NCBI GenBank assembly: GCA_018695135.1
Contig: JABHOV010000052.1
Span: 1-52,609, forward strand
Source: Candidatus Melainabacteria bacterium
Lineage (GTDB): Bacteria > Cyanobacteriota > Vampirovibrionia > LMEP-6097
Direction of reading: 5' to 3'
DNA: 52,609 nt
This document shows, in pieces, positions 1,328-48,731 of the stretch. The position numbers and the translations under genes are program-made. The notes below the pieces were generated by a model. That model was not told where the DNA came from and did not search any database. It worked only from the letters and a program-made list of their open reading frames with translations. Numbering within the stretch: the first letter of the stretch is position 1; every line of letters begins with the position of its first letter.

Positions 1328-2164
1328 CTAGTCTTCTAGCAAGCTAGTAACAAATTCAAGGTATCTTGCATCAGCTTTACTAAAGTGCACATCAATATCC
1401 AAGTCTTTGTCTTTTGTTTGGTAATTCAATAAACCATCGTCAAAAATAGAACTTGCAAATTGTTCAAGCACCAGTTTAGCTGGATCAATAAAATTGTAAT
1501 CATTAGTAGACTTAACGCGCAAGTCCCCTTGCTCTTTACTAACGGAACTAGTGCTTAGCACCGTTCCGACCTTTTTTGTGTCGACATCACTAGCAAAACT
1601 TTGTTTTGCAGGATGTCTAGCCTCAACTAAAAAAGAATAATGAGTACAACCGATTATCACATCAGTAATCGCCTCAGGCAAATTCTTTAAATGTGTTTGC
1701 CAATTTGCTTTTGCTTCTTCAAGCTTGCCAGCTTCAATCAATGGCACCAGATCAGTACAAGCAACTGGATGGATATCTACTGACCAGTTTTTATAACGCC
1801 CAGAATCAATAGTTGCTTGAGTTGCAATCAAGGCAACTGGTTTGTCAAATTGATTAGTGGCAAAATATTTAGTCAGCACATCATTCAAACTAATGACCTG
1901 AAAAAAATAATCCACAAAATCAATTTGATCAAGATACATCGAACTAGAATTGCAAGCAGAAACAAGAACATCAACTTGCTTCTCTTGCATAAAGTCCGCA
2001 ATCTCTAGAACATAGCTCTTAAGCTGTTCTGGGCTCTTAGTACCATAAGGAGCCCGTGCTGAATCACCAAAATACACATATGAATACTTTGACCCATACT
2101 TGGCTATGAACTCTTTTAGTACCGAGAGCCCACCTAAACCTGAATCATAAAAGCCAAGCTTCAT
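1328..2164 (-). CDS. murI: Glutamate racemase with unusual internal insertion
   Basis: MKLGFYDSGLGGLSVLKEF, YFGDSARAPYG, VSACNS and IIGCTHY motifs. Confidence 0.92.
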   Translation of the reverse strand: MKLGFYDSGLGGLSVLKEFIAKYGSKYSYVYFGDSARAPYGTKSPEQLKSYVLEIADFMQEKQVDVLVSACNSSSMYLDQIDFVDYFFQVISLNDVLTKYFATNQFDKPVALIATQATIDSGRYKNWSVDIHPVACTDLVPLIEAGKLEEAKANWQTHLKNLPEAITDVIIGCTHYSFLVEARHPAKQSFASDVDTKKVGTVLSTSSVSKEQGDLRVKSTNDYNFIDPAKLVLEQFASSIFDDGLLNYQTKDKDLDIDVHFSKADARYLEFVTSLLED

Positions 2165-3852: not shown

Positions 3853-3873
3853 ACATATGCTATAAAATTAGTA

Positions 3874-4941
3874 ATGGCTAAGATATATAAAGTAGGCATT
3901 TTAGGCAGCACCGGCTATACCGGGGCTACTTTAACCGGATTACTGGCTAAACACCCCAATATAGAGATTGTTTTCCTCGCTTCCCAGCAATATGCCGGAC
4001 AGAAATTCTCCACTATCTATAGTGAATATAGAGGCTTAGTCGATATCGAGTGCAGCAATATTGATGATGAAGCAATTCTTAATTTAAACAAAGACGAGAT
4101 TGACTTAGTCTTTTTTGCAACTCCCAATGGAATTGCCCACAAACATGTACCTGGTCTAATTGCAAAGTCAATCCATTGTATAGACCTTAGTGCTGACTAC
4201 AGGTTCAAGGATTTAGATTTATACACTAAGTGGTACGGCTTCAAGCGTCAAGACCAAGCGACTAATGCCCAAGCAATTTATGGTTTAGTTGAATATAATC
4301 GCGAGGCAATTAAAAAAGCAGCCAAATCACAAACTATGATCATCGGCAATCCCGGTTGCTACACCACTTCTTCAATACTAGCGCTCGCTCCGATACTTGA
4401 AGCAATGGCAGATTCCATAGACACTAAATCAATCATCGTTGACGGCAAATCTGCAATCAGCGGAGCTGGACGCAAAGCTGCAACCAACTTGCTATTTTCT
4501 GAGATCAATGAATCCTGCTCGCCATACAAGCTAGCCAATCAGCACAGACACGGTCCTGAGCTTGAAACTTTCTTTTCAGAGATTAGCGGCAAAGAAATTC
4601 AGCTTAGTTTTTCTCCGCATCTAGTGCCAATGTCAGTGGGGCTCTTGACCACTTGCTATATTCAATTTACTAAAGAAACAACTGAAGCCGACTTGCGCAA
4701 GCTCTATGAAACCAGATACGCAGCTGAACAATTCATCAAACTACTGGAACCTGAACTCTACCCACAAACCAAATGGGCAGTTGGCACTAATCAAGCATTT
4801 ATTCAAATCAACTACGATCCAAGACTCAAGCGCGCCACCATCACTTGTGCAATTGATAATCTAATGAAAGGTGCAGCCGGGCAGGCTCTGCAGAATATGA
4901 ACTTAGTTTTTGGTTTAAAAGAAAATATTGGCTTGAATTAA
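3874..4941 (+). CDS. argC: N-acetyl-gamma-glutamyl-phosphate reductase
   Basis: KVGILGSTGYTGATL, GNPGCYTTSS and HRHGPE motifs. Confidence 0.93.
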   Translation: MAKIYKVGILGSTGYTGATLTGLLAKHPNIEIVFLASQQYAGQKFSTIYSEYRGLVDIECSNIDDEAILNLNKDEIDLVFFATPNGIAHKHVPGLIAKSIHCIDLSADYRFKDLDLYTKWYGFKRQDQATNAQAIYGLVEYNREAIKKAAKSQTMIIGNPGCYTTSSILALAPILEAMADSIDTKSIIVDGKSAISGAGRKAATNLLFSEINESCSPYKLANQHRHGPELETFFSEISGKEIQLSFSPHLVPMSVGLLTTCYIQFTKETTEADLRKLYETRYAAEQFIKLLEPELYPQTKWAVGTNQAFIQINYDPRLKRATITCAIDNLMKGAAGQALQNMNLVFGLKENIGLN

Positions 4942-5831
4942 CTTAATAAAAACAATTCAGCCAAAACTAATTGCGGTCTTACCGAACTCTTCAAACTACT
5001 AATTGCTTTTTCATATTGCAAAACTAAATCAGCTTGTGCTAAATCAGCACTATTACTAAAATCATTTTGCAATATTTGCAAGGCACCAACAAGATCTTTA
5101 TTCTCGCGACTAGAAATTTCTTCTGCTTTCATTAGTTGTGCCAAACGTGAGCTCGCATTATTTGACCCGAAGAATTCACGAAGCTCGTCACTAAGCTCGC
5201 GAGCAGCTTCAGTAAATTCTTTATCAGAGTTGTTATTCAAGGCAAGCACTTGAGACCTACTTACTATAGTAGAAAGCACAGATGAGCGTGATTCAGCAAA
5301 AAGCATAAACAAAGTACCCTCTCTTGCTTCTTCTATTGTTTTTAATAATGCAGCTGATGAATTTGGATTCAAAACTGCCGATGAGGCATCTTCTATAATT
5401 ACAATTCTAAAAAACTCAGAGCTTTGTGACAACTCCCCCTGAAGTTCTCTAATTTGATCTACTTTGATTACATGTGTCTTGCTTTCAGCATCCGGTCTTA
5501 AATAAATTGGTGTCCGAGGATGTGTAGCTAGCTCTATCCACCTACAACTTTGGCAAGTTCCACAAGCCGCTCGTAAAACTAGGTCTTTATTAGCAGAACA
5601 ATTCAAAACCATATTCATCTGTTTGACTAACTGATGCTTGGAGCCAAGATCACGCCCAGTAAGCAAGTAAGACCTAGCTAAATGATCTTTAGTTAAGCTC
5701 TGGTTAAAAAATTCCGTGACGAATTTGTGTTCTTTTATATCTATTAATTCTGCCATTATGAGTAATGAAACAACGCTTAATGCATATCCAATTAAAACGT
5801 AGCTCTTAATGACAATAATAGCAAGTTCCAC
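4938..5831 (-). CDS. holB: DNA polymerase III delta' subunit (HolB-like)
   Basis: CGTCQSCRWIELATHPR zinc-like motif, SSAALLKTIEE, and SVLSTIVSRSQ sensor motif. Start may be the internal Met (MAELIDIKEHKF). Confidence 0.82.
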   Translation of the reverse strand: MELAIIVIKSYVLIGYALSVVSLLIMAELIDIKEHKFVTEFFNQSLTKDHLARSYLLTGRDLGSKHQLVKQMNMVLNCSANKDLVLRAACGTCQSCRWIELATHPRTPIYLRPDAESKTHVIKVDQIRELQGELSQSSEFFRIVIIEDASSAVLNPNSSAALLKTIEEAREGTLFMLFAESRSSVLSTIVSRSQVLALNNNSDKEFTEAARELSDELREFFGSNNASSRLAQLMKAEEISSRENKDLVGALQILQNDFSNSADLAQADLVLQYEKAISSLKSSVRPQLVLAELFLLS

Positions 5832-6051
5832 CAGATGGGCTAATATTAAAAGAATTTCATCTCCCTTAACAAATCCATAACCCTGTTATGCATTTATTCA
5901 TTTGTACTAATCAATTAGCAAATAAAGCCGATAGATAAGTACAGAGAATAGTTTGCTTAGGAGACAGTCGATGTTTCTAGCAGTAGTTAAAATCTCAAAG
6001 ACCCATCTAGGGCCCAAGAGCCAATAACACCAAAACAAAGGAGAACAGATT

Positions 6052-6828
6052 ATGTCATTAACAGGACGCAATCCAACTATAAGATTATCGATCATTAGAT
6101 CGCAAATCGACAAACAACAACAAGTAATAGCTTTACTTGAAAACAGATTACAAGAGGCAATCCTCGGTGGTACTGATGTAGGTGATATCTACGGAGATCA
6201 GGATCTCGACGGAGGTTTAGGCGAAATCGCACAAATCTACGGAGATAATGGAACCATCGATTCTAAATATGGCTATGTGCCAGATCCAGCAACAGGTGCC
6301 GCAACAACAGAAATAAAGCAATTGAATACAGCTACTGGACTAACAGAATCAGTTAACGAAGACGTTAACTTAACAAACGTTCGTATAGACAGAGCAGCAG
6401 CAACTGGAGATCCGGTTCAAGGTATATATCAGTTCTTTGATCCTGATGGTGAAGTCAATGTTGAAGAATATGCAAGATACCAACAAGATTATGCAATAGC
6501 TTATGGTGGAGCATTACTGGATCCAAGTGATGATACTTCATTCAGAGACGCTCCAGCAGGCAGAGCGGACTCGCAAGGTCTTAACGCTGCAGAGTTATTA
6601 CCAACATATACTGGACTCACTGGTGCAATGCACAAGGGTGTTCTTGACTTCCAGCAAGTTGATGGTGCCGGCACTCCACTTCCATTGGAGCAAGATGGTA
6701 TTAGACAACTACTTTATCAAGCGAGAGCATTGATGGGTGAACTTAGAGTTGAAGAGCAACATTGGAATGCTGAAGTAAACGAAGAGAAATCTAGACGTAA
6801 AGAATTAATTGACTTTACCAAAGGATAG
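6052..6828 (+). CDS. Hypothetical acidic protein
   Basis: ORF with strong SD (aaaggagaacag) just upstream of the ATG; GDIYGDQDLDGGLGEIAQIYGDNG acidic stretch. Confidence 0.75.
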   Translation: MSLTGRNPTIRLSIIRSQIDKQQQVIALLENRLQEAILGGTDVGDIYGDQDLDGGLGEIAQIYGDNGTIDSKYGYVPDPATGAATTEIKQLNTATGLTESVNEDVNLTNVRIDRAAATGDPVQGIYQFFDPDGEVNVEEYARYQQDYAIAYGGALLDPSDDTSFRDAPAGRADSQGLNAAELLPTYTGLTGAMHKGVLDFQQVDGAGTPLPLEQDGIRQLLYQARALMGELRVEEQHWNAEVNEEKSRRKELIDFTKG

Positions 6829-6846
6829 AAATTAATACAAAAAAAT

Positions 6847-6884
6847 ATCGAGGCCAAGTTTTGTACTAGCCTCGATTTTTTTTT
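6847..6884 (+). terminator. Rho-independent terminator
   Basis: ATCGAGGC...GCCTCGAT stem followed by a T tract, directly downstream of the 6052..6828 CDS. Confidence 0.9.
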
Positions 6885-6901
6885 GTACTCGATAAAACAA
6901 A

Positions 6902-6987
6902 CGTCATTGCGAGGGAATGAAATGACCGAAGCAATCTAGTGGATAGTTTTTAGATTGCCGCGCTGCATTCTGCAGCTCGCAATGACG
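6902..6987. repeat. CGTCATTGCGAG-family palindromic repeat (intergenic copy)
   Basis: Starts CGTCATTGCGAG, ends CTCGCAATGACG, with internal GAAGCAATC / GATTGCC half-sites. Confidence 0.9.
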
Positions 6988-7031
6988 ATTTTGTAAGGCT
7001 TCACCATACTTCAAAAAACTTATCTGCTTTA

Positions 7032-8330
7032 CTAAACCATTCCAGCATCACCTATATTAGGTTCAAAGTACTTAGACGGCAAAGTGATTTTACCAGCTAA
7101 TTTATAAGCAAGAATTTGTGCGTCTAGTAGGTTATCAGCGACTGCAGTCGCTCCAAAGATCTCAGATTCTTTATCGTGAGCTTCTTTAGAGCCAGTGAGA
7201 CCGTAGAAGACTAGTGGTAGACCAGAAAAACTCTCACTGATTTCACCAAGTTGCTTATTAATAGAATCCAAAGCACCGAGGTTCTGCCTATAACCCGCTA
7301 CACTGTCAGCGGTAACAACATTGACCGATAAAGCAGAGCCCAAGAACTTGTGAAGTCCTTCTTTATAAAAGCTAAGATCAAGGTTTGCTGATGCCATAAA
7401 CAATTCAAACAGATCTTCATCGAGTAGCGGCAAAATCACCTGCGCGTCAGAGTCAGCAAAACAAGTTCGGTATTGAAGTAGTTTGGGTTTATTTTTGTCT
7501 CTTGAATCTAAGACAATGTCAAAAGCCAGTAAACCAGAATAAGTTCTTCCTTCTTTAGCCATTGCAGCCAAAGTCGGATCTATAATTTCATTGCGAATTT
7601 GCATCATTAGATCAGGAGTCAAAACAGGTGTAGGTGCGTAAGCCCCCATATCTTGATATGAATCTAATTCATTTTCTTCTCTATAAGCTTGCACCGGCAA
7701 CAAAGACAGAGCCCTAGTACCGTCACAGACAGTGTTGATACTCAGCTTGGGACCTTCCAGAACCTCCTCAAAAATAACTTTGGAACTAGTTCTTGATAGA
7801 AAACGATTCTTGAACATACTCTTAATGACTTTATTTGCTTCAACAATGTCGCAAGCAACCCTTGCTGGTTTAGTTGTTTCAAATTCTTTATCAGCACAAA
7901 TTCTCAGTGGGTAACTTGCTCTTTCCAAAAAGGCTTCAGCTACAGCTTGATTATCAAAACAGACAAAACGTGGACCAGGTATCTCATTACGATAAATAAA
8001 ATCTCTTGCAAAAGCGTTTGAAGACTCAATTTCAGCAGCAGCCTGGGTCGGACCCATAATTAACTTATTGTTGGCTCTAAAGAGATCGACAATTCCCATT
8101 GTAAATAATCGAGAGTCACCTATTATTGTCAGATTAATATTGCGCGCAATAGCAATCTCTAATAATCTATCTATGTCATTAGTATCAACATCAACACATT
8201 CAGCAAGCTTGGCAAGCGCCTGATTACCGGGCGCAGCAACTATTTCTATATCACTAAATTTCTCAGAAGCTAATAGCTTCCAGATCATCGCATGTTCTTT
8301 TGAGCCGGAGCCTATGATGAGGAGTTTCAC
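7032..8330 (-). CDS. purD: Phosphoribosylamine-glycine ligase
   Basis: MKLLIIGSGSKEHAMIWKL N-terminus, ATP-grasp layout, YSGLLAFDIVLDS. Confidence 0.88.
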   Translation of the reverse strand: MKLLIIGSGSKEHAMIWKLLASEKFSDIEIVAAPGNQALAKLAECVDVDTNDIDRLLEIAIARNINLTIIGDSRLFTMGIVDLFRANNKLIMGPTQAAAEIESSNAFARDFIYRNEIPGPRFVCFDNQAVAEAFLERASYPLRICADKEFETTKPARVACDIVEANKVIKSMFKNRFLSRTSSKVIFEEVLEGPKLSINTVCDGTRALSLLPVQAYREENELDSYQDMGAYAPTPVLTPDLMMQIRNEIIDPTLAAMAKEGRTYSGLLAFDIVLDSRDKNKPKLLQYRTCFADSDAQVILPLLDEDLFELFMASANLDLSFYKEGLHKFLGSALSVNVVTADSVAGYRQNLGALDSINKQLGEISESFSGLPLVFYGLTGSKEAHDKESEIFGATAVADNLLDAQILAYKLAGKITLPSKYFEPNIGDAGMV

Positions 8331-8350
8331 TTAGCTATTATCTCATGATA

Positions 8351-8555
8351 GTAGAAAAGCAGCAAGCTGCTGTTCTACGGTGGCGCTCACTTTGTTCGCT
8401 GGTTGCGCTTGCCTTTCAGGCTCGCTGGTTGCGGCACTTCGTGCCTGCCTCTTGTGTCAAAAGTCTTAGATTGTTCTCTTTTATGTTAGAAGCAGGACGT
8501 GAAACGTCCGCAACCAGGGAGCAAAGCGACCACAGCCAGCGAACAAAGTGAGCGC
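8351..8555. repeat. Complex GC-rich nested palindrome
   Basis: Perfect 20-bp IR GCGCTCACTTTGTTCGCTGG (8383-8402) / CCAGCGAACAAAGTGAGCGC (8536-8555); inner IR CTGGTTGCGG (8425-8434) / CCGCAACCAG (8508-8517); hairpins GTAGAA..AGCAGC-AA-GCTGCT..TTCTAC (8351-8378) and GGACGT-GAA-ACGTCC (8495-8509). Confidence 0.9.
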
Positions 8556-8595
8556 AACCGTCCTCGAAGAGGACACTAGCTATATAATAAAACTA

Positions 8596-11500
8596 ATGCA
8601 ATTCATCGTCCCCATCTCTTTTATATGTTTTTTTCTTAGTGGAGCAGTAGCACTAGTCTATGAATTAACTTGGCTTAGATTGTTAAGACAAATATTTGGT
8701 ACCGACAGCCTGGCTCTTAGTACCATGCTTACAGTTTTCATTGGTGGCATTGCCGTTGGTACTTGGCTTTCTGGAGTCATCATCAATAAATATTTTAGAC
8801 AACATGATTATCAAAGCGAAGAAAAAAACCACATCGTAAGGATGGCGCATAGTTACATCCTTATATATGCTTATGCTTTCATTGAGCTATTACTAGGTGT
8901 CTATGCACTGATGGTGCCATTTTTACTTGGCAGTAATTTCCTTGGCAAGATATGGCTACCATTTGCACAAATCGCAGTTGATAACTTAATGGTCGGCTCT
9001 TTAGTCAAGTTTGTACTTTCAGCAATCCTCTTGATCATTCCAACTCTATTAATTGGGCTTAGTTTTCCATTACTTACAGAACTAATAAATATAGACAAGG
9101 CAGAACACAGGGATTCGCAGTTTGCTGCAAGTAATTTATATGCAGTCAACACTTTTGGTGCCATTATTGGTGCAGCAATTTGCGGATTTTATTTACTACC
9201 TGTATTTGGCTTAGATTTCAGTACCAAGATCGCCGTTCTTGGCAATCTCGCAATTGCAATACTCTGTTATTTTTGTGTATTTTCCAACCGAACAAACTTC
9301 ACAAACGCAAGCCTAATCGGTGTTTGTGACTTTGTCTGCAAATTAGCTAAAGACAATCACGATCCAGACGAGAAGCATGAACATAGTAAAGAATACAAAA
9401 GAGTTAACTACTTACTGCTTTTGATTGCATTTACAATTGGCTTTATCAACCTTGGACTCGAAGTCATTTGGACCAAAGTTTTGACTTTGATTATCGGCTC
9501 ATCTACTTATTCACTAACTATAATCCTAATAGCAGTGCTTGGCGGCATCAGCCTTGGCGCATTCATGCTCAATTACCTAATTAAAATCATCGACAAGTTC
9601 AATCTAAGCTACAAAAGCTTTCTTAATTACTCACTCTTGAGCTTCGCTTGTTTAATAACAATCTCATCATCATTTTTCAATAAAGCGCCTTGGTATTTTT
9701 TAAACCTCAACCAAACAATAGAAAACATCTTAGGTTACTCACCATGGCTACTCTCAAACATAATCAAGTTCATGAGCATTGCTGCAATCATAATTCCAGT
9801 CACTGCCTTTGAAGGCTTGATATTTGCCTTTGTACTTTATCTAGTTTCTGGCAAAACCAACATGATAGAGAACCGCAAGCTAGAACCCGTTGGCACAAGG
9901 GTTTCCAAGGCATCATACATCAATACCTTTGGTGCTATTACCGGCTCATTCCTGACTGGCTTTGTACTCATTCCCCTGTTTAGCAAATTTGGCAGCGGCA
10001 CTTATGGCTGCTTGATCACATTAATCTGCATTGCATTTGCTCTTGCTCTTTTTACCAATTTATATGATTCCAAGTTTAATCCACTGGCTATCGCAACGAT
10101 AATCGCTTGCTTGCTGAGTATTAACTTTCTGCCGAAACTAGACGCCAATGAAATCTCTAGTGGAATTGCTGTCTACAAAGGCATGAAATATAAATCAATC
10201 ACCAAGAAGGATTACAAGCGCGCCATCTCAGAGCAGATATTAATGCACGAGGAAGGCATCAATAGTATCGTCACAGTAGTAGAAAACAAAGCAGCTAATG
10301 CAATCTTCTTAAAGACAAACGGCAAAATAGAAGCAGGAATGCCAATCAATCCTGAAGATCCATCCAAAGCCGACATGACGACTCAAGTGCTGCTTGGTCA
10401 ATTGCCAATCTTCGTCAAACCCAATATAGAAAAAGCTTTGCTCATAGGCATGGGCTCAGGCATTAGCCACAAGTCCCTACTCAAAATCGGTGCCAAAGCT
10501 CAGCTCAAACAAGTAGAGGTTTGTGAAATTGAAGAACTAGTTTACAAAGCAGCAGGTAAATATTTCAATGCAGTAATGACAAAGGACTATGGTCCAATTA
10601 AGCTTAATCATCATATGGCCGACGCCCGAAATTTCTTGATAGCCAATAAAACGAAACAAGGAGCAGGTACACTTTATGACCTAATAATCTCCCAACCTTC
10701 TGATCCATGGATTTCAGCAAATCTATTTACTGAAGAATTTTGGCAACTAGCATCTTCTAACCTCAATGAAGATGGGATCTTTGAACAATGGATTCAACTA
10801 TATTCAATTGACCCCAAACATCTAGAAATCGCCTTACGTACTTTTAGTCAGGTCTTCCCAAATAGCATGGCATTCAAGCCTGGAGACGCCGCTGAGCTGC
10901 TACTAATTGGCTCAAAGCAAGAGCTGGAGCTTGATAGCAAGAAGATCAATGAGCTCATGAAATACAAAGAAGTCAAACAAGAACTTTCTTATATTGGCAT
11001 TAATGATGATGCTGATTTACTATCCAACCTAGTCTTAAGCCCAGCAGCAATCAATAAATTATTAAACCGCAAAGCCGGTAACCAAGCACATCACAACATC
11101 AAGATCTTAAAATACATCACCAAGATTGATGCTGGTACTCATGAATACAAACCTAAGCTAGCTAATCAACACAATGAAGAAGAGAATGATAAAAAACCTA
11201 GCAAACAAAAATTAAATACCGATGACAATATGTTGCTTGAATTTCACACTCCAAAGCAGCTTAGTCAGTTTTATCAAACCATCAAGACCAATCTTAGTTA
11301 TATAGAAAAACATAGTAACCCTGCAGATATTATTGAGTACCTTGCCTTACAAAAAGACAGTAGTCTCCTTACTAGAATCGCCATGGCACACAGTCAAAGC
11401 AGTTCAAAACCACACCCCAAGCTAGCTCTCGGGATCGCTGAGCAAATGCATGAGATCAATAAGACACCAGCCAGCTATCTAGCGCTCTACCACATCCACA

Positions 11501-19540: not shown

Positions 19541-22225
19541 GTGAAGAATCTCAGTTGCCAAGAAATAAGAGAAACATGGATTAATTTCTTTACTAAGAAA
19601 TGTGACCGTATACATCAGCATATCGCTTCAGGATCTTTAGTACCGGATAATCCAACCCTACTACTTAACGCTGCTGGCATGGTTCAGTTTGTACCGATCT
19701 TCGTGGGTACCAAACCTGCCCCCGAGCCGCCAAGAGCTGTCACAGTACAGAAATGTGCGCGTGTCGGCGGCAAAGACAGTGACCTAGAAAATATCGGGCG
19801 CACAACTAGACATCATAGTTTTTTTGAGATGCTTGGTAATTTCTCATTTGGGGATTATTTCAAAAACGAAGCAATCAAATGGGCTTGGCAATTCGTCAGA
19901 GAAGAACTTGAACTAGACGCTGATAAATTATATGTTTCTATCTTTGAAGGCGACGAGCAAAACCCAATGGACACTGAAGCCCAAGCAATTTGGCTAGAGA
20001 TACTTGCACGAGACTTCCCTGATTTAGAGCAGCGTCAAAAACGTATTTGGAAGATGGGTCGCAAAGACAACTTTTGGGGGCCTCCAGGTACTACCGGTCC
20101 TTGCGGACCTTGTAGCGAAATATACTATGATCTTGGTGATCACATCAGTGACCCAGAAGACAGGTATCTTGAGATCTGGAACTTGGTTTTCATGGAATTT
20201 CTTAAAGACGAAGAAGGCAAATTCACTCCACTTGAAAATAAAAATATAGATACTGGCGCAGGACTAGAAAGAATCGCAACGATATTACAAGGAGTTAACA
20301 ACTCTTTTGAAACCAATGAACTATTCAATGTAATGCAAAGCCTTGCCAAAGACCTTGGTCTAGAATATGGCAAAAATCCAGATCATGATCTTTATCTCAA
20401 GATCATCACTGATCACTTACGTTGTCTTTGTTTCTTGATAGCTGATGGTGTTAGACCAAGTAATATGGGACGCGGTTATGTCCTTAGAATGATCACAAGA
20501 CGCGCTGCTAGGTTTGTTTATTTAATCCGTAACCAAACAGATGCTTTTCTTTATAAGCATTGTACTAGCGTAATTCAAAACTACTCACTAGCCTACCCTG
20601 AGCTGCAAGCAAACTCAGAAGCGATTGTTTCAGTTTGCCGCAAAGAAGAGGAGGCTTTTGCCAAGACTATTGTCAATGGACTTGCTTTGCTTGAGGAGAA
20701 ACTCAAAGCGAGTGGCAAAATGGTAGACGGAGAATTTATTTTTGATCTTTATTCAACTTATGGCTTACCACTTGAATTAAGCAAAGACATTGTTGAAGAA
20801 CAGGGACTCACTATTGACCTAGAAGCATACCAAAAATCCAAAGACGCTCACTCCAAAGCCTCTGGCACAGGCAATTTCAAGACATCCGTTGAATCGAATT
20901 CTTATGTCGCTGACTTAATCAAAAAACATGGTCCAACTAAATTCCTTGGTTACGACCAGCTTGAAGCCAAAGCCAAAGTGCTTGCAATCCATGGCAATGA
21001 CATCGTGCTTGATCAAACTCCATTTTATGCTGAGTCTGGCGGGCAGGTGGCAGACTCTGGCACCATCCGTCATTGCGAGGCGAAGCCGAAGCAATCCAAT
21101 GGACAAGTTAAAGCCACAGACGTCATTGCGAGCGTAGCGAAGCAATCCAGAGTAACCAAAGTAAAAAAAATCGAGGGCATATTCATTCATACTCTTGAAA
21201 GCACTGAAGACTTTAATATCGGCGATGAAGTCACAGCTCAAGTCAACAGTAAAAGCAGAAACCTTACTGGCTATCACCACACAACTTGTCATCTCTTGCA
21301 AGCCGCCCTGCGCCAAGTACTAGGAAACGACATTCAACAAATGGGCTCGCAAGTCGGACCAGAATATACTCGCTTTGACTTTAACCTTGATAGAGCCATG
21401 ACTAAAGAAGAAATATTCAAGACAGAAAAGATAGTCAATGACTGGATTCAAGCCAAGCTACCAGTAGAAACTAAGGTCATGGATTTTGATGATGCAATTG
21501 CAGCAGGCGCCCTTAGTTTCTTTGAAGAGAAGTATGACGACCAGGTTAGGGTTTTGTTTATCAGAGACGATCAACAAACAGCATCTATTGAGTTATGCGG
21601 TGGCACTCACGTCTCTAACATCGGCGATATTAGAGAAGTAGTACTGGCTCAAGAGGGTTCAGTGGCTGCAGGCATTCGCCGTATTCGCATGCTCGCTCAT
21701 GACTTAGCTGCCAAGCACCGAGAAGAAGAAAAACTCAAAGAAGCTGCGTTAGCCCAAGAGCAAGCTGCTCAAGAAAAAGCAAAAGCAGAGGCTAAGGCGC
21801 AGAAACTAGAACAAAACAACTTAGTACTTACAAAAACTGATGAGATTCTCAGCAAATCAAACAAAACGACAGAAGCTCAAATCATCATTGCCAATCTTGC
21901 AGATTATTTTCCTGGCGAAGAACTTGAAACCGATGCTGTCAAAACTCTAATAGAAGCCTTGCTCAGCAAGATAGAATCATCTGGTTCTCAAGCCTTTATT
22001 TTAGTAGCTGCAGCAAGCACTAGCAAAGTCACTTTTATGGCAGCAGCCTCTCAAGAACTAGTTAAAGACAAAAACTCTAGATATAATGCCTCTAATGCAG
22101 TCAAAACGGCAGCCCAAATCTGCGGTGGTGGTGGCGGTGGTAGACCCAATTTTGCCCAAGCAGGGGGGAAAGACCCTAGCAAAGTCCCTGAAGCCCTACA
22201 ACTAATTCAAGAAGATACAAAATAA
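19541..22225 (+). CDS. alaS: Alanyl-tRNA synthetase carrying in-frame repeat insertions
   Basis: FFEMLGNFSFGDYFK, CGGTHV, C-terminal DHHA1 with GGGGGGRPNFAQAGG. Confidence 0.95.
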   Translation: MKNLSCQEIRETWINFFTKKCDRIHQHIASGSLVPDNPTLLLNAAGMVQFVPIFVGTKPAPEPPRAVTVQKCARVGGKDSDLENIGRTTRHHSFFEMLGNFSFGDYFKNEAIKWAWQFVREELELDADKLYVSIFEGDEQNPMDTEAQAIWLEILARDFPDLEQRQKRIWKMGRKDNFWGPPGTTGPCGPCSEIYYDLGDHISDPEDRYLEIWNLVFMEFLKDEEGKFTPLENKNIDTGAGLERIATILQGVNNSFETNELFNVMQSLAKDLGLEYGKNPDHDLYLKIITDHLRCLCFLIADGVRPSNMGRGYVLRMITRRAARFVYLIRNQTDAFLYKHCTSVIQNYSLAYPELQANSEAIVSVCRKEEEAFAKTIVNGLALLEEKLKASGKMVDGEFIFDLYSTYGLPLELSKDIVEEQGLTIDLEAYQKSKDAHSKASGTGNFKTSVESNSYVADLIKKHGPTKFLGYDQLEAKAKVLAIHGNDIVLDQTPFYAESGGQVADSGTIRHCEAKPKQSNGQVKATDVIASVAKQSRVTKVKKIEGIFIHTLESTEDFNIGDEVTAQVNSKSRNLTGYHHTTCHLLQAALRQVLGNDIQQMGSQVGPEYTRFDFNLDRAMTKEEIFKTEKIVNDWIQAKLPVETKVMDFDDAIAAGALSFFEEKYDDQVRVLFIRDDQQTASIELCGGTHVSNIGDIREVVLAQEGSVAAGIRRIRMLAHDLAAKHREEEKLKEAALAQEQAAQEKAKAEAKAQKLEQNNLVLTKTDEILSKSNKTTEAQIIIANLADYFPGEELETDAVKTLIEALLSKIESSGSQAFILVAAASTSKVTFMAAASQELVKDKNSRYNASNAVKTAAQICGGGGGGRPNFAQAGGKDPSKVPEALQLIQEDTK
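21068..21149. repeat. Two direct half-copies of the CGTCATTGCGAG repeat inside alaS
   Basis: CGTCATTGCGAGGCGAAGCCGAAGCAATCC (21068-21097) and CGTCATTGCGAGCGTAGCGAAGCAATCC (from 21121), translated in frame as RHCEAKPKQSN and VIASVAKQSR. Confidence 0.92.
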
Positions 22226-22369: not shown

Positions 22370-22753
22370 ATGAGTCGAACGCAGAACTCACTTTATGAAA
22401 ATATACTACAGCAATTAGCAGTATATGTAGTTGAACCTTCCATGAGAGAAGGTATTAAGGATGGATTAAAAGAGGCTGTAAAAGAACTAAGAGACTTTCC
22501 ATATAGATCATTCGCAGGACCTCACTCTTACGATGGTTTTTTTAATTCGTTGCAGGACAGCATAAATTATCTACTCAAACCAGAGACTGATATAGAGACT
22601 TCACTCACTGTTGCAAGATACTTATTGAATCAATTAGAAAATAAAGTAGTAGTACTTCCTGAATCGTCAATTCCTTGCAATTCAAGGGTAAAACCGCATC
22701 AAAACAAGAATCGCAGACCCAGCGATACTCACTTATTCGCTAAAAATAATTAG
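22370..22753 (+). CDS. Hypothetical protein
   Basis: 127-aa ORF with promoter upstream; 3' end overlaps acs convergently by 21 nt. Confidence 0.6.
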
Positions 22754-24937
22754 ACCTTCCAATACCTGCATATTCTCAAGCGTACTAATATCACCAGTAA
22801 CTTCTTTACCTTGAGCAATCTCTTTAAGTAATCTACGCATGATTTTACCTGAACGAGTTTTAGGAAGTGCTGAACAAATAACTATTCGTTCTGGTCTTGC
22901 TATTGCACCGATCTCTTTGACGACTTGATTTTTAAGTTCTTCTTCCAGATCGTCATTGCGAGTCGCCGAAGGCGGCGTGGCAATCTTGACATTAGAAGCT
23001 CTGGATTGCTTCGTTTCACTCGCAATGACGACAAAAGCAACAATAGCTTCACCCTTAATCTCATGAGGTATCGAAACTACAGCAGCTTCACTTACTAGCT
23101 CATGAGCAACAAGTGCTGACTCAATTTCGGCAGTTCCAAGACGATGACCAGATACATTGATCACATCATCTACTCTACCGCCAATTTTGATATAACCGTC
23201 CGCGTCTTTAGTTGCAGCATCACCAGCGAGATAAACGTCATTGCGAGGAGCGTCAGCGACGTGGCAATCCAGGCTAGATTGCTTTGCTTCGCTCGCAATG
23301 ACGTGACTCCAGTAAGTATCTATATACCTTTGATCATCACCCCAAATAGTCCTTGCCATAGAAGGAATAGGACTTTTCAAATATAGAAGTCCTTCATTGC
23401 TGACATCAGCATCCACACCAGGCAAAGGCAAGCCTGCCACACCTGGTTTCATCTCATGAACTCCAGGTAGAGTTGTAATTGCAATGCCACCAGTCTCTGT
23501 CTGCCACCAAGTATCCACTATAGGGGAATATTGTTCGACGACTCGCCCTGGACAACGCGAGCCACCTATATTCTTATAAAACCACTCCCAAGCAGCAGGG
23601 TTAATTGGTTCTCCGACAGAGCCAAGTAAACGAAGTGAACTTAGGTCGTGCTTCTCGACATGCTCCAAACCCCATTGCATAAACGCCCTCACCGCAGTCG
23701 GTGCCGTATAAAAAATACTAATCTTGTATTTCTCTATCATTGACCAAAAACGAGATTTATCTGGGTAGTCTGGAGCGCCTTCGTAGATGAAGACGGAGGC
23801 GCCGTTAGAAAGCGGCCCATATGCTACATAGCTATGTCCCGTCACCCACCCCACGTCCGCTGTGCACCAGTATAAATCCCCAACTGCTGCGTTACGCTCA
23901 TGATTTACAGTCATCATTGGCGGCTCAGCCAACTCAGCCTGTAAATCATTCGCAAGCCTTGCATTTGGAGAATTTCTACTGGCGCACAGAGTATCCACAG
24001 TTGAATCACAGTCTTGAGTTTTCAAATCGAATACCCAGTTACTGGTTAAATGCGTCCAAAGAATATATCCCGCCGTCGTATGCACTATCCCCTTAGGCTT
24101 GCCTGTAGAGCCGCTTGTATACAAAACAAAGCTCATGTCTTCAGCCTCCAATTGTTCTGGCTCACAATTCGCTTCAAAACTACTTAGATCCCAAGTAACC
24201 AAATTCGCAATTGATTTCTGCAATTCCAAATCGTCATAGCTAGAATCAACTTGTTTAATCCGATCAAAACAAACTACTCTTGAAACAAAACTCAAGCCAT
24301 CGACAGCTTCTTTAACTGTCTCTAACAGCGGCACCACTTTGCCTCGACGAAACGATCCATCCGCAGTGATCACATACTTAGATTTAAGATCCTCAATTCT
24401 ATCGCGCAATGCTTGTGCAGAGAAACCTCCAAACACTACACTATGAACAGCACCAATTCTCAAACAAGCATGCATCGCAATTATTGCTTCTGGGCACATT
24501 GGCATATAGAGAGTGACTGTATCGCCCTTCTTAACACCAATACTCTTAAGCAAATTAGCTGCCTTGCAAACTTGATCATGCAGCTCTTGATAAGTCAGGG
24601 TCTTAGTATCACCAGGCTCACCTTCAAAAACAATTGCAGCTTTGTTGGCTTGAGTTTTTAGATGCCTGTCGATACAGTTGTATGAGATATTGATCTTGCC
24701 ATCTTCAAACCAAGTAAAGAAGGGCTCTTCTTTCTTCAACATTGCCACCGTCGGTTCTTTAAACCAATCCAAATTCTCTTTAGCTAAATCCAACCAAAAA
24801 GCATCAGGATCAGTTTTGAATTTAGACATCAAAGCCTGATAATCAGCATCCTTGATATTAGCTTGTGCTTTAAATTCTTCACTGGGGCTGTAGGATTGCT
24901 GCATGCAACAATGATAGCATCGCTTCAAATAATTCAT
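22733..24937 (-). CDS. acs: Acetyl-CoA synthetase with three in-frame insertions
   Basis: [64 protein letters not shown]. Internal Met 24904 is a possible start. Confidence 0.93.
22951..23030. repeat. CGTCATTGCGAG palindrome inside acs (copy 1)
   Basis: CGTCATTGCGAG...CTCGCAATGACG; encodes [27 protein letters not shown]. Confidence 0.92.
23236..23303. repeat. CGTCATTGCGAG palindrome inside acs (copy 2)
   Basis: CGTCATTGCGAGG...GCTCGCAATGACG; encodes [24 protein letters not shown]. Confidence 0.92.
23879..24022. repeat. Third, different palindromic insertion inside acs
   Basis: ATGATTTACAG (23900-23910) / CTGTAAATCAT (23939-23949); interrupts the conserved ...[16 protein letters not shown] segment with ~45 extra residues. 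Boundaries approximate. Confidence 0.7.
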
Positions 24938-28157: not shown

Positions 28158-28234
28158 GCTCCTGTAGCTCAGTTGGTTAGAGCAGTCGACTCATAATCGA
28201 TTGGTCAAGTGTTCAAGTCACTTCGGGAGCACCA
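28158..28234 (+). tRNA. tRNA with CAU anticodon (Ile2 or elongator Met)
   Basis: Manual cloverleaf: acceptor GCTCCTG/CGGGAGC, D-stem GCTC/GAGC, anticodon stem GTCGA/TCGAT with CTCATAA loop, T-stem AAGTG/CACTT with TTCAAGT loop, encoded CCA. Confidence 0.95.
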
Positions 28235-28235
28235 T

Positions 28236-28276
28236 TAAAAAATAGGTACCTGCTGAAGTAGGTACCTATTTTTTTT
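28236..28276 (+). terminator. Rho-independent terminator after tRNA
   Basis: AAAAATAGGTACCT - loop - AGGTACCTATTTTTTTT. Confidence 0.9.
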
Positions 28277-28321
28277 GTTTCATGAGTGACTTGAACACTT
28301 GCTATAATCCTTTAAAACAAG

Positions 28322-29089
28322 ATGCTAAACCAAGCCCTCAACTCAAGAAGCAAAAAAGATCAAGATCTTTTTGATAGCATAAGCAAACAGTATTTCAAGA
28401 AAGATTTAAACAAAGCATCAAGAATAGCTCGCAAACATAGACTCATTCAAACCCTAGGCAAGAACAATAAAAAACTAAGAGTATTAGAGCTCGGCTGCGG
28501 AGCTGGTTTTGGAGCCGAGTATCTTCAAGGCTACTATAGTCACTATACAGGAGTGGACTATTCTACTCAATTCATTAATCTTGCCAAACAAAGAAGCCAA
28601 GATCCCCAAGTCACTTGGATCTGTTCAGATTTTCTAGAACTCGATACTGATAATCAATATGATCTCATTTTTATGATTGGAGTTTTGCATCATATGGAAG
28701 ATATCAACGCTGCACTTAGAAAATGCTTTAAACTTTTAGCGCCAGGTGGCATTTTAATAGTTAATGAACCACAGCCAAATAATTTCTTGATTCACAACAT
28801 GAGGAAATTGAGAAAAAAACTCGATAGTCACTACTCTTCAGACCAAGAAGAACTTGAATCCCAGTTTATAACAGATAAATTCAAAGAAGTTGGTCTATGT
28901 GAAATCACAACTAGCCCGCAAGGCATCTTCTCAACTCCTTTTGCAGAGATTAGTTTCAAGCCCGAGTCTTTCTTTGCAGCCTTGGTTCAACAGTTCTGCA
29001 ACTGGGATAAATATTTGGAAAAACATTACCCTAAGATACTAAGTAATTGGACTTGGAATTGTATAGTATCTGGACAAAAAGCTAATTAG
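28322..29089 (+). CDS. Class I SAM-dependent methyltransferase
   Basis: VLELGCGAGFGAEYLQ, YDLIFMIGVLHHMED, LLAPGGILIVNEP. Confidence 0.88.
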   Translation: MLNQALNSRSKKDQDLFDSISKQYFKKDLNKASRIARKHRLIQTLGKNNKKLRVLELGCGAGFGAEYLQGYYSHYTGVDYSTQFINLAKQRSQDPQVTWICSDFLELDTDNQYDLIFMIGVLHHMEDINAALRKCFKLLAPGGILIVNEPQPNNFLIHNMRKLRKKLDSHYSSDQEELESQFITDKFKEVGLCEITTSPQGIFSTPFAEISFKPESFFAALVQQFCNWDKYLEKHYPKILSNWTWNCIVSGQKAN

Positions 29090-37105: not shown

Positions 37106-38090
37106 CTCTATACAAAAATTCTTGCATCAAATAGTCTTAGGCAATTCTTTCTTGGCTAGATCTTTATTTGAGATGGAGAAATCTTTATTTCATAAAAAAG
37201 ATGAGATCATAAGCAATGCTGAACATGTTTTCATCACAGGTTTACCAAGATCAGGAACTACTATACTGCTCAAAGCTCTTTATGAGACAGGAGATTTTGC
37301 TTCATCAACTTATGCAGATATGCCATTTGTCTTAGCGCCAAATTTATTCAAGCAATTTTCAAGCAAATCAAACTTACAAACTAAAGAGAGAGCTCAACAA
37401 GATGGCATAGAGCTTGATTTAACTTCCCCAGAAGCTTTTGATGAGGTTTTCTTCAAGGCTTTCACACAAGATGAGTCTCACGAGGAGCTACAAGCTTTTG
37501 TCTCACTCATCTTGAAGAAATATCAAAAAAAAAGATATTTAAGCAAAAACAATCTAAATTATCAACGTATTGAATTAATCAGCTCAGTTTTCCCTAATGC
37601 AAGATTCTTAATTCCATTTAGAGAGCCATTGCAACATGCTTATTCATTACTAAAGCAACATCAGCATTTTTACAAATTACAAAAGCAAGATAGTTTTGTT
37701 TTGGAATATATGAATTTACTCGGACATCATGAGTTTGGATTAAACCATATAGCTTGGAACCCAGCCCAGCAATACACAGATCCTTTTAGTCTTAGTTACT
37801 GGCTAGAACAATGGTGTATGTTCTATCAAAACATTCTCAAAGACAAGTCAAAACAATCAAGCCTCGTTTCTTATTCAAGGCTATGTGAAAGCCAAGAATA
37901 TAGACAAGCCTTGGTCACAGAACTAAAACTAACAGAGTTGACAACCGTCTTCAAGCTTGCACAAGCAGATATTCAAGAAGACTATGACAGAGATCTGTAT
38001 GATAAGTCTAACGAGATTTATCAAATCCTCAATTTGAGTAGTACGTGTAAAAGTTTAGGTGACCTAAGTCCCTACAAAGTACAATCATGA
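37092..38090 (+). CDS. Sulfotransferase-family protein
   Basis: HVFITGLPRSGTTILLKAL PAPS-binding-like P-loop, FLIPFREPLQHAYSLLKQH. Start at internal Met 37092 preferred over 37053. Confidence 0.8.
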   Translation: MQNYSSIQKFLHQIVLGNSFLARSLFEMEKSLFHKKDEIISNAEHVFITGLPRSGTTILLKALYETGDFASSTYADMPFVLAPNLFKQFSSKSNLQTKERAQQDGIELDLTSPEAFDEVFFKAFTQDESHEELQAFVSLILKKYQKKRYLSKNNLNYQRIELISSVFPNARFLIPFREPLQHAYSLLKQHQHFYKLQKQDSFVLEYMNLLGHHEFGLNHIAWNPAQQYTDPFSLSYWLEQWCMFYQNILKDKSKQSSLVSYSRLCESQEYRQALVTELKLTELTTVFKLAQADIQEDYDRDLYDKSNEIYQILNLSSTCKSLGDLSPYKVQS

Positions 38091-38241
38091 AAATATCGCT
38101 CACCCACTCTCTGTTACTGCATCAGTTTTTTCGAGTAATCACAGTCTGAAGCGCTATGTGAGGATCGATGACTGTAAACAGTCCTCACAAATATTTTCAG
38201 ATTGCACTTTGTAGGGACTTAGGTCACCTAAACTTTTACAC
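38045..38241. mobile_element. MITE-like element with near-perfect terminal inverted repeats
   Basis: 36-bp perfect IR (38045-38080 / 38206-38241), extended to ~51 bp with one substitution and one indel. Confidence 0.85.
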
Positions 38242-45782: not shown

Positions 45783-48632
45783 CTAGACTAGCTCAGGAGT
45801 TTTTGTTGTCTTAAACACTTGTTCTTGTTTACAAATACTCCATTTAGAATTTGTTAGAAAGGCATTAAGAACTTCGTCAGGTCTTTGAGTTGACGTTAAC
45901 CTAAGTTCTAATTGTTCTGAATCTAAAAATTGCATACCGATTATATTGTCTCTAATATTCTTAGATTGCCCCTTGCCTCTCGGGTCTTTCTTGACCCCAA
46001 TCACTACGATCTCCCCTTGATCGAGAAAAGTTGTTAGACTTTGATCTAATTTCTGCTGAAATTCATCCTTATCTGTATTACCTAGATCATTATTCTGGCT
46101 GGAAAGCTCGTCATTCTGTATTAACTTTGCTGTATAAACCGTCTCTAGGACATCTTCAAGGGATAATCTTTCTTTAGAAGAGATCTCCGTCACCTCTACT
46201 ATTCTAGCTTGTTCTGGAAGTTCTTGGTTTAAAATTTCTTTTAATTTATCAAGATCTTCAAAAACCTCAGCCAGTTCTATAATCAAGTATTCCCCCATAC
46301 TCTCAACAAATAACGATAATGCATTCATCCAACTAATTTTGATACGCTGATTAAAGCCCTTGCTATGGACCAACGGCAAGCCAGAACGCCTGAAAGCACG
46401 CTCTAAAAGCCTCTGGAAATCCAAATGTGAAGCAAATCTATAGTCTCCAAGCTTAGTAATTTTTAATTTAATTCGTTGTTTACAAACCGTATTTCTGACA
46501 ATTATTTTAGGTTGCTTACTTGAAACTAGCTGCTCAGGCTCAATCACAGCCATACCTGTATTGACTAAAGCGTCCAAAAATAACAGGAGGTCGTGATATT
46601 TTTGTGCACGAATTAACCACTCTTGCTTCATAACATCTTGATCAGCCAATCTTGAGTCTTGATCAAGCGTTTCTACAAAAGGATTTGAATCAGAAAGATC
46701 TACTCCAACGATATTTTTCACATCGAGATTAAAACATACACCGCAAGCGTGACATTTATTTTCGGTACAAGGCGCAGTCTCAATTTCATCAACAGCTTGC
46801 TGCCATTCATGCACTAGAAACTTATCAGTAAAACCAATAGTCAAAACATCCCATGGCTGCTTTGAGCCAGGTTCCCTATGCTTAGTAACTTCCTTTTCGA
46901 TATCCAAACCACACTCAGCAGCAACCGTTTGCCAGCGATCAATATTGAAATGCTCAGACCAAGAGTCCATGCGAGAACCGGTCTCCCAAAGCTTTTGAAT
47001 AACTTGTCCCCATCTTCTATCACCACGTGATAAGACAGACTCTATCATTGCAAGTTCTGGCTCGGTGCAATTGAGCTTAATGTGTTTAGCTACTCTTCTT
47101 TGTCTTAATCCATCACGGATATATTTTTGTTTACGGTAAAATTCTGCAACACTGCATTGCGGGAACCACTGAAAGGCAGTAAATGTTTTTGGTACAAAAG
47201 TAGAAATAGTACAAGTGATCTTAAGAGGTGCTTTTCTTCCTTTGCCATTAAGTCCAGTAGCTCTGTGCAAATTTGCTGCCCACTCTAAAATATCTATGAT
47301 CCCATCAAGATCAGCATCTTCTTCAAAGGGTAAGCCAATCATAAAGTAGAGCTTGATTTGCTTCCAACCCTTGTCGTAAGTACCTTGTATGGCACGTTTA
47401 ATTTCTGCCTCACTAAGTCCCTTGTTAATAATGCGGCGCATTCTTTCGGTACCAGCTTCAGGTGCAAAAGTCATTCCAGATTTGCGCGCGCCTGAAACCT
47501 CATCTGCAAGCTGCACATTAAATCTATCAGCACGTTGTGATGGCATTGATAAACCAACTCCATTTTCTGCATGCTCTTCATTAATTGCATGAGCCGCTTC
47601 TGTCAGGCAAGTATAATCACTAGCCGACAATGACAACAGTGTAATGTCTTCATAACCAGACTGCTTGACTGACTCACCGCTCAATCTCAAAAGATCCTCT
47701 GCAGAGCGTTCACGCACTGGCAAGTAAGTATAACCAACTTGGCAAAAACGACAACCACGATCACAGCCACGGCGTATCTCAAGCACTTGTTTGTCTTGTA
47801 CTGTTTTGATATGCGGCACTGGACCAGAGATAGGGTTGTTAGAGTCGGTTAGGTATTGAGTGATTCTTTTTTCAACGGGGTAAGGAGGCTGCAAAGCTGT
47901 AGGGTTAGAAGGCTGTAGGGCTGTAAGGCTAGAAGGCTCTATGGGGCGTGGGATATAATTCTCGTCTAATTCATATAATGAAGGGACATATACTCCCTGT
48001 AATTGAGACAGTTGTAAAAGCAAATCTTCCCTTCCAGCCTTAGAACCCTCCAGCCTTAGAGCCTCAAGAAAATTAAGACACAAGTCTTGAATTTCTAGAA
48101 TCAACTCCTCTCCATCCCCAATAATAAAAAAGTCAAAATACTCAGCCATTGGCTCAGGATTAAAACACGCAGGCCCGCCAGCAAATACAAGTGGGTGACT
48201 TAGATCACGGTCTTTGGTTTTAAGTGGTAAGCCGGCAAGATCAAGTACATTGAGTACATTGGTGTAGCAAAGCTCGTAAGCTAGTGAGATCCCAATAAAA
48301 TCAAACTCAGCAAGTGGTTTGTTAGCCTCCCAAGACCAAAGCGGCATTTCATTGGCGCGCATCATCTCTTCCATATCAGGCATCACCGCAAAGGCTCTGT
48401 CACAAAGATAGTCAGGATGATTATTTACGATTTGATAAAGTAGTTTGAGCCCAAAGTTGGACATGCCAAGTTCATAAAGATCCGGGTAGACCAAAACCAT
48501 TCTTGACTTTGCTGAGTCCCAATCCTTGTGAGCCGCTCCCCATTCATTACCAAGATACTGTCCAGGTTTTTGAACTTGGGGGAGTATTTGGTTTCTTAGT
48601 TTGGTAGAAATCATTTTTATTAAATCCGTCAT
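45783..48632 (-). CDS. B12-binding radical SAM protein fused to DUF2344-like domain (TIGR03960-type)
   Basis: LVYPDLYELGMSNFGLKLLYQIVN, EIRRGCDRGCRFCQVGYTYLPVRERS, C-terminal FASHLDFQRLLERAFRRSGLPLVHSKGFN. Confidence 0.9.
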   Translation of the reverse strand: MTDLIKMISTKLRNQILPQVQKPGQYLGNEWGAAHKDWDSAKSRMVLVYPDLYELGMSNFGLKLLYQIVNNHPDYLCDRAFAVMPDMEEMMRANEMPLWSWEANKPLAEFDFIGISLAYELCYTNVLNVLDLAGLPLKTKDRDLSHPLVFAGGPACFNPEPMAEYFDFFIIGDGEELILEIQDLCLNFLEALRLEGSKAGREDLLLQLSQLQGVYVPSLYELDENYIPRPIEPSSLTALQPSNPTALQPPYPVEKRITQYLTDSNNPISGPVPHIKTVQDKQVLEIRRGCDRGCRFCQVGYTYLPVRERSAEDLLRLSGESVKQSGYEDITLLSLSASDYTCLTEAAHAINEEHAENGVGLSMPSQRADRFNVQLADEVSGARKSGMTFAPEAGTERMRRIINKGLSEAEIKRAIQGTYDKGWKQIKLYFMIGLPFEEDADLDGIIDILEWAANLHRATGLNGKGRKAPLKITCTISTFVPKTFTAFQWFPQCSVAEFYRKQKYIRDGLRQRRVAKHIKLNCTEPELAMIESVLSRGDRRWGQVIQKLWETGSRMDSWSEHFNIDRWQTVAAECGLDIEKEVTKHREPGSKQPWDVLTIGFTDKFLVHEWQQAVDEIETAPCTENKCHACGVCFNLDVKNIVGVDLSDSNPFVETLDQDSRLADQDVMKQEWLIRAQKYHDLLLFLDALVNTGMAVIEPEQLVSSKQPKIIVRNTVCKQRIKLKITKLGDYRFASHLDFQRLLERAFRRSGLPLVHSKGFNQRIKISWMNALSLFVESMGEYLIIELAEVFEDLDKLKEILNQELPEQARIVEVTEISSKERLSLEDVLETVYTAKLIQNDELSSQNNDLGNTDKDEFQQKLDQSLTTFLDQGEIVVIGVKKDPRGKGQSKNIRDNIIGMQFLDSEQLELRLTSTQRPDEVLNAFLTNSKWSICKQEQVFKTTKTPELV
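47893..47940. repeat. Octamer tandem repeat in the radical SAM gene (array 1)
   Basis: AAAGCTGT-AGGGTTAG-AAGGCTGT-AGGGCTGT-AAGGCTAG-AAGGCTCT; encodes 8-aa repeat TALQPSNP TALQPPYP. Confidence 0.85.
48034..48065. repeat. Octamer tandem repeat in the radical SAM gene (array 2)
   Basis: CCAGCCTT-AGAACCCT-CCAGCCTT-AGAGCCTC, reverse-complement relative of array 1. Confidence 0.75.
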
Positions 48633-48731
48633 TGCGAGGAACGAAGTGACGTGGCAATCCAGTGGATTAATTTCAAAAGTTTATTCAATAGTCAATGCAT
48701 TAGGTTGCTTCGCCTACGGCTCGCAATGACG
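48627..48731. repeat. CGTCATTGCGAG-family palindrome between radical SAM gene and rpsJ
   Basis: CGTCATTGCGAGGAACGAAGTGACGTGGCAATCC ... GGTTGCTTCGCCTACGGCTCGCAATGACG. Confidence 0.92.

Follow-up and report, generated by a model that had tools for sequence, protein, structure and literature searches.

The 17-nt inverted copy of the T-arm behind the tRNA-Met gene of this Candidatus Melainabacteria bacterium is one case of a family-specific habit, in which about a third to half of the tRNA genes have pieces of their own sequence next to them. This wider family pattern, rather than the single arm, is the main finding of the work. Our preferred reading of the arm, to which we give a probability of roughly 0.55, is that it represents the antisense arm of a truncated tRNA-flanking fold-back unit, formed by template switching and by recombination at tRNA ends. 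It is most likely a leftover scar and not a working switch.

The inverted pair at the tRNA-Met locus

The window, by which we mean the whole stretch of 52,609 nucleotides that was analysed, contains tRNA-Met(CAT) as its sole tRNA gene. The features around this gene are given below, where G000 is the genome of the window and G001 that of a congener.

28158 to 28234, plus strand: tRNA-Met(CAT) gene with its CCA encoded (ARAGORN; Rfam RF00005, 70 bits)
28206 to 28222, plus strand: left arm of the inverted pair, which is the T-arm, tRNA nucleotides 49-65 (CAAGTGTTCAAGTCACT)
28237 to 28274, plus strand: intrinsic-terminator-like hairpin and T run, putative leader of a truncated unit; contig C50 of G001 has the same hairpin before the arm
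28285 to 28301, minus strand: right arm, a 17-nt antisense copy of the T-arm and putative antisense arm of the truncated tRNA-flanking unit (AGTGACTTGAACACTTG)
28300 to 28308, plus strand: extended -10-like element TGCTATAAT, overlapping the end of the antisense arm; a consensus match only, identical in G001
28322 to 29089, plus strand: class I SAM methyltransferase ORF of 255 aa, the downstream neighbour (Pfam Methyltransf_11, 5e-23)

The two arms are complementary at 17 of 17 positions over a spacer of 62 nt, exactly where the original prediction had placed them, and the terminator hairpin that it had seen between them is borne out as 17 pairs followed by a T run. Because the T-arm itself forms a stem-loop, the 17 letters are partly self-complementary, and it is by the 7-nt loop, TTCAAGT in the tRNA and ACTTGAA in the copy, that an inverted copy can be told from a direct one. 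The locus holds a reverse-complement copy of nearby sequence, as template switching would leave behind, here without a mismatch. Besides tRNA-Met itself there is no direct tRNA fragment in the window, and the combination of an intact tRNA and a displaced end that is the hallmark of an island is not seen there. No integrase gene is present at the locus, the two PF00589 matches of G000 being on contigs C46 and C96, and the family's units offer too little length for such a gene. Of the parts of the units described below, the window has only the terminator and the antisense arm, not a complete unit.

Could the arm simply be the region upstream of the methyltransferase promoter, resembling a T-arm by accident or convergence? 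Some observations are compatible with this, since a common T-arm sequence has GACTTGAAC as its reverse complement, and the extended -10 with which the arm overlaps could be retained for its own sake. In addition, the arm differs from that of G001 at 1 of 17 positions and the adjacent coding DNA is 92% identical, therefore there is no sign of selection for complementarity. However, exact 17-nt pairs were absent from all of 40 dinucleotide shuffles of the whole window, searched for exact inverted pairs with a spacer of 20-200 nt; the longest pair obtained was 14 nt, and pairs of that length occurred at 0.05 per window. Against chance also stands the fact that numerous tRNAs of the family show the same relation and that the loci sampled in other families all lack it, and we regard an accidental origin as very improbable.

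The 17-mer has no other match with up to one mismatch in the 2.05-Mb genome, and with two mismatches contig C57 gives a single further match, the surrounding stretch having no tRNA gene. The sequence is thus locus-specific, and a dispersed ordinary repeat, which had been named as the finding that would speak against a special arrangement, is ruled out. A general excess of inverted repeats in the genome was likewise rejected, the two longer pairs of the window both being away from tRNA genes. One of these is formed by the perfect 36-nt terminal inverted repeats of a 197-nt non-coding MITE-like element (38045-38241), and the other measures 20 nt. As separate observations, a dispersed palindrome with CGTCATTGCGAG arms occurs in the window at 6902-6987, 22950-23031, 23235-23304 and 48627-48731, and the ORFs at 19541-22225 and 22733-24937 (AlaRS among them) have IAS-AKQS-like insertions resembling Rickettsia-type palindromic elements.

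Part of the arm now lies within the promoter region of the methyltransferase gene. The TATAAT at 28303-28308 is directly preceded by TGC, giving an extended -10 whose TG is supplied by the antisense arm, and it ends 13 nt before the ATG at 28322. The proposal that it would give a near-leaderless methyltransferase mRNA is right, yet the situation is ordinary. Among the 34 ORFs of at least 120 aa in the window, nine have a -10-like hexamer ending 5-6 nt before the start codon, where about 0.5 would be expected from a base-composition estimate, and only four have a Shine-Dalgarno-like word. Leaderless or near-leaderless mRNAs are consequently probably common in this organism, and with nine of 34 ORFs alike the methyltransferase promoter is unremarkable.

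Cognate fragments around the tRNA genes of the family

Six genomes of the family (G000, G001, G002, G003, G006 and G007, all draft assemblies) were compared by scoring each tRNA against its own flanks and, as the non-cognate control, against flanks belonging to tRNAs of other amino acid specificity. For the 62 tRNA genes of G000 and G001, the cut-off was the 99.9th percentile of the non-cognate scores, and above it we found a downstream antisense copy at 11 genes, a downstream direct copy at 13, an upstream direct copy at 10 and an upstream antisense copy at three. A look at the other tRNA genes of the genome had been proposed as a check, and cognate flank fragments do recur there: in G000, 17 of the 31 tRNA genes have at least one such fragment within 300 nt. 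The corresponding numbers are 12/31 in G001, 11/27 in G002, 9/31 in G003, 10/31 in G006 and 9/33 in G007, with a non-cognate expectation in the six genomes of 0-0.3 per fragment class. Antisense copies are concentrated close to the gene. Of 81 family loci, 22 have one in the first 200 nt downstream (control 0.8); at 200-400 nt this is the case for 5 of 79, and beyond 800 nt for none. Outside the family, 46 single-tRNA loci were taken from seven other families of the class, and an antisense copy was found at none of them.

These fragments are organised into units of approximately 75-250 nt that are tandem and gene-free. A downstream unit runs from a leader or terminator through an antisense arm, a sense return and hairpins to an exact copy of the tRNA 3' end. 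The downstream units of G007 are clean tandem repeats, and the one behind tRNA-Ala (95 nt, two copies) reads as a 21-nt leader, antisense nucleotides 67-51, sense GAGTGTT, GATCTTTTCGC, a hairpin, CAT, and CTTCGGGTCCACCA, the last being the tRNA-Ala 3' end. The same plan is seen at Trp (90 nt), Cys (99 nt) and Asp (about 101 nt), and in G000 and G001 at Phe (96 nt). In G007 a run of 4-6 T comes after the antisense-sense hairpin. The final tandem copies in this genome are truncated, and those of Ala and Thr-ggt stop past the leader and the antisense arm.

Units on the upstream side have the mirrored order: exact tRNA nucleotides 1-17/19 and a hairpin come first, then an A-rich stretch, a short piece in sense, a piece in antisense, and a leader before the real tRNA; examples are Met (three copies), Thr-ggt (three copies) and Val. 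With tRNA regions assigned by position in the tRNA, the D loop is where 16 of 22 exact 5' copies break off, and for 20 of 28 exact 3' copies the start falls in the T loop or in the 3' strand of the T stem. The anticodon arm holds the break of Thr-tgt, and the D arm that of Thr-ggt (131 nt, two copies).

A common body sequence for all units of G000 and G001 was rejected, as only short words are in common, several of which apparently derive from a separate dispersed repeat. Such a repeat, with TAGACATCCTGC, was observed in the flanks of six tRNAs in G000 and G001 (Arg-ccg, Gln-ttg, Leu-taa, Met-cat, Ser-gga and Val-gac). An Rfam scan of the unit bodies gave, tRNA aside, no family at or above the gathering score.

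Units are also precisely present or absent. In G003 a 223-nt unit with its own terminator lies downstream of tRNA-Lys, and in G007 the site is empty, the tRNA-Lys directly abutting the same flank, which matches that of G003 at 194 of 199 positions. Similar differences between G000 and G001 were found at Tyr (374 nt), upstream of Ala-ggc (148 nt) and upstream of Pro (92 nt). Despite this presence and absence the Lys unit looks old. Its hairpin is GTAATTTGC-AAA-GCAAATTAC in G000 and G001 and GTAAAAGC-AAA-GCTTTTAC in G003, in the same position and between similar flanks, so that pairing is retained despite the change in sequence. Its displaced 3' tRNA end matches the tRNA of its own genome at 29/30, 30/30 and 30/30 positions in these three genomes and that of the other genus at only 20-21/30, which points to concerted evolution of the displaced ends with the host tRNA. 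Between G003 and G007, most units are conserved at 0.95-0.99, compared to 0.71-0.85 in the DNA behind them, with exceptions. We also noted that terminator hairpins can differ completely between conserved flanks, as at tRNA-Lys in G000 and G001, and at tRNA-Met at the end of C24 and in C50 of G001, as if they had been swapped whole.

The tRNA-Met locus in relatives and the origin of the arm

The locus is best followed in G001. There, a 7.3-kb island (1333-8690 of locus L042, contig C24) consists of the tRNA, a different terminator and two large ORFs, and ends with tRNA nucleotides 33-77 again, the break being in the anticodon loop. The larger predicted protein (1905 aa) matches DUF58 only weakly, narrowly missing the Pfam cut-off, and the other (406 aa) has no Pfam match; no integrase is present in the island. 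Contig C24 ends at the island and C50 starts with the same 69 nt. We infer the junction from this exact overlap of the two contig ends, and the order of island, unit and arm in G001 depends on it. The unit in C50 comprises antisense nucleotides 31-52 (none of 2000 shuffles was as good), a weaker sense copy of nucleotides 28-46, hairpins and direct nucleotides 53-77. Past the unit come the terminator of the window, the antisense arm and the methyltransferase gene, whose protein is 93% identical. As the arm in G001 comes after a complete unit and a 7.3-kb tRNA-integrated island, the arm of the window is most likely the scar of a tRNA-targeted process.

To reach other relatives, a collection of 85,462 species was scanned. 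The methyltransferase yielded none, and the neighbouring NAD(P)HX epimerase/dehydratase-like ORF led to the G002 contig with tRNA-Met, from Candidatus Melainabacteria bacterium SB9156_S5_bin_14. At orthologous loci, one of the checks originally proposed, the arm is kept in G001 with 16 of 17 positions, but no antisense arm was found downstream of tRNA-Met in G002 (49 nt searchable), G003 or G007. The two species that have the same flank both have the arm, and the three without it have other flanks. Upstream Met units are present in G002, G003, G006 and G007. With only two species having it, the arm may be either the remnant of a collapsed unit or a founding state, the former being our tentative reading. 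The suggestion of an invertible segment is not supported, as the terminator and the arm have the same orientation in both species with the segment.

The same locus brings in integration. The alternative is that the units are non-autonomous miniature integrative elements for which a tyrosine recombinase cuts in tRNA loops, the window showing the end of one; the element would restore the tRNA and leave a displaced end, and the antisense arm would belong to a recombinase-binding site that it carries. Integrases are known to cross over at particular tRNA subsites, in the anticodon loop, in the T loop and at the T/acceptor junction (PMC4383910). The tRNA-Met islands of relatives are in agreement with this, with the anticodon-loop break in G001 and, in G003, an integrase gene adjoining a displaced copy of tRNA nucleotides 24-77. 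The exact tRNA ends and the precise presence and absence of units also fit integration, and the Lys unit of G003 carries a terminator unlike the one behind it. However, the listed subsites (PMC4383910) do not include the D-loop breaks seen with 5' fragments, integration is not expected to give antisense arms cognate to each host tRNA, and no unit contains a gene. Integrases are equally common in families without units, for which reason integrase number was rejected as the cause. Y1 (RAYT-like) transposases were rejected as a general cause as well, with six matches in G000 and none in the unit-bearing G003 and G007. We consider the integrative explanation tentative, at perhaps one chance in four. 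The earlier idea of an integration relic at a tRNA comes nearest to the evidence, in that relatives do use the same tRNA and antisense pieces are standard in the units.

Another alternative is that the arm is a working RNA element, in which read-through would pair the T-arm with the arm, spoil the tRNA and so check transcription or maturation; in G007 the antisense-sense hairpin and its T run may itself be a terminator. Sequestration of the T-arm in a read-through transcript, as had been predicted, is possible energetically: the modelled read-through RNA (163 nt) folds T-arm to arm at -69.7 kcal/mol, replacing the cloverleaf, and the terminated RNA (119 nt) folds as cloverleaf and terminator at -48.5 kcal/mol. 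The T runs behind the G007 hairpins, the higher conservation of most G003 and G007 units over the DNA behind, and the pairing kept in the Lys hairpin would fit a function too, but template switching also yields paired changes (PMC8794818). In the window a strong 17-pair terminator precedes the arm. The arrangement is not conserved: in G001 the island and a unit separate the arm from the tRNA, and no arm lies behind tRNA-Met in the searchable 49 nt of G002 or in G003 and G007. Because of the strong terminator, this lack of conservation, and an arm that diverges about as fast as coding DNA, sequestration is an unlikely purpose at this locus. The arm probably has no present role in tRNA maturation, and a working element seems to us doubtful, clearly more so than an integrative one.

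We favour the truncated fold-back unit, since template switching gives cognate antisense arms by construction and breaks in the first hairpin from either side, and both hairpins and paired changes are documented products of it (PMC8794818). In this scheme, tRNA genes of the family would gain short non-coding units made of their own sequence. The antisense arms would arise by fold-back template switching of the polymerase on tRNA hairpins, and the repeated tRNA ends would recombine, so that units are added and removed by tandem gain and loss. At the window, such a collapse would have left the terminator and the antisense arm between tRNA-Met and the methyltransferase gene, and the last copies of the Ala and Thr-ggt units of G007, truncated at the same point, support this. 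Template switching alone does not account for the hairpins that are not derived from the tRNA, nor for old displaced tRNA ends that are identical to the host tRNA.

Relation to known systems

The tandem rtT repeats of the Escherichia coli tyrT operon lie behind a tRNA gene and contain a copy of the tRNA 3' end. To our knowledge they are restricted to that operon and to direct copies, whereas the units described here are found at many tRNAs, in both orientations and on both sides; no rtT match was obtained in the Rfam scans of the units. Small palindromic non-coding units are also known as the REP/RAYT palindromes and the Rickettsia-type palindromic elements. The present units differ from these in following the sequence of the host tRNA itself, with no family consensus, and in the lack of Y1 transposases in G003 and G007.

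Bacterial islands land most often at tRNA genes, and adjacent fragments are usually read as island ends. Fragments of tRNA-integrated islands (Islander, PMC4383910; tRNA gene fragments in prokaryotes, PMC9897764) resemble the units in the complete tRNA with a displaced exact end and in the loop breaks, and the same tRNA-Met hosts real islands in G001 and G003. In contrast to islands, the units have no genes or integrase, measure only some 75-250 nt, are tandem, have antisense arms and D-loop-broken 5' copies, and occur at a third to half of the tRNA genes. They may have escaped notice because island searches discard candidates below 2 kb (PMC4383910). Template-switch (fold-back, quasipalindrome) mutations (PMC8794818) share with them the nearby reverse-complement copy, the new perfect hairpins and the paired changes, but the known cases are single and local, whereas the units are tied to tRNA ends, are tandem and occur at many tRNA genes of one family.

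In the open-access literature we found no such units. It is conceivable, though less probable than the fold-back reading, that they form an undescribed class of tRNA-dependent units, with sense and antisense pieces of the host tRNA, loop breaks, tandem amplification and concerted evolution, acting as minimal site-specific parasites or as RNA regulators. The units are far below the size covered by island searches, and antisense arms are expected from local replication errors and not from integration. Within this one set of genomes, tRNA hairpins become testable as mutation hotspots or as recombination sites, and the apparent concerted evolution of the displaced ends with the working tRNA would call for continuing conversion or for a function.
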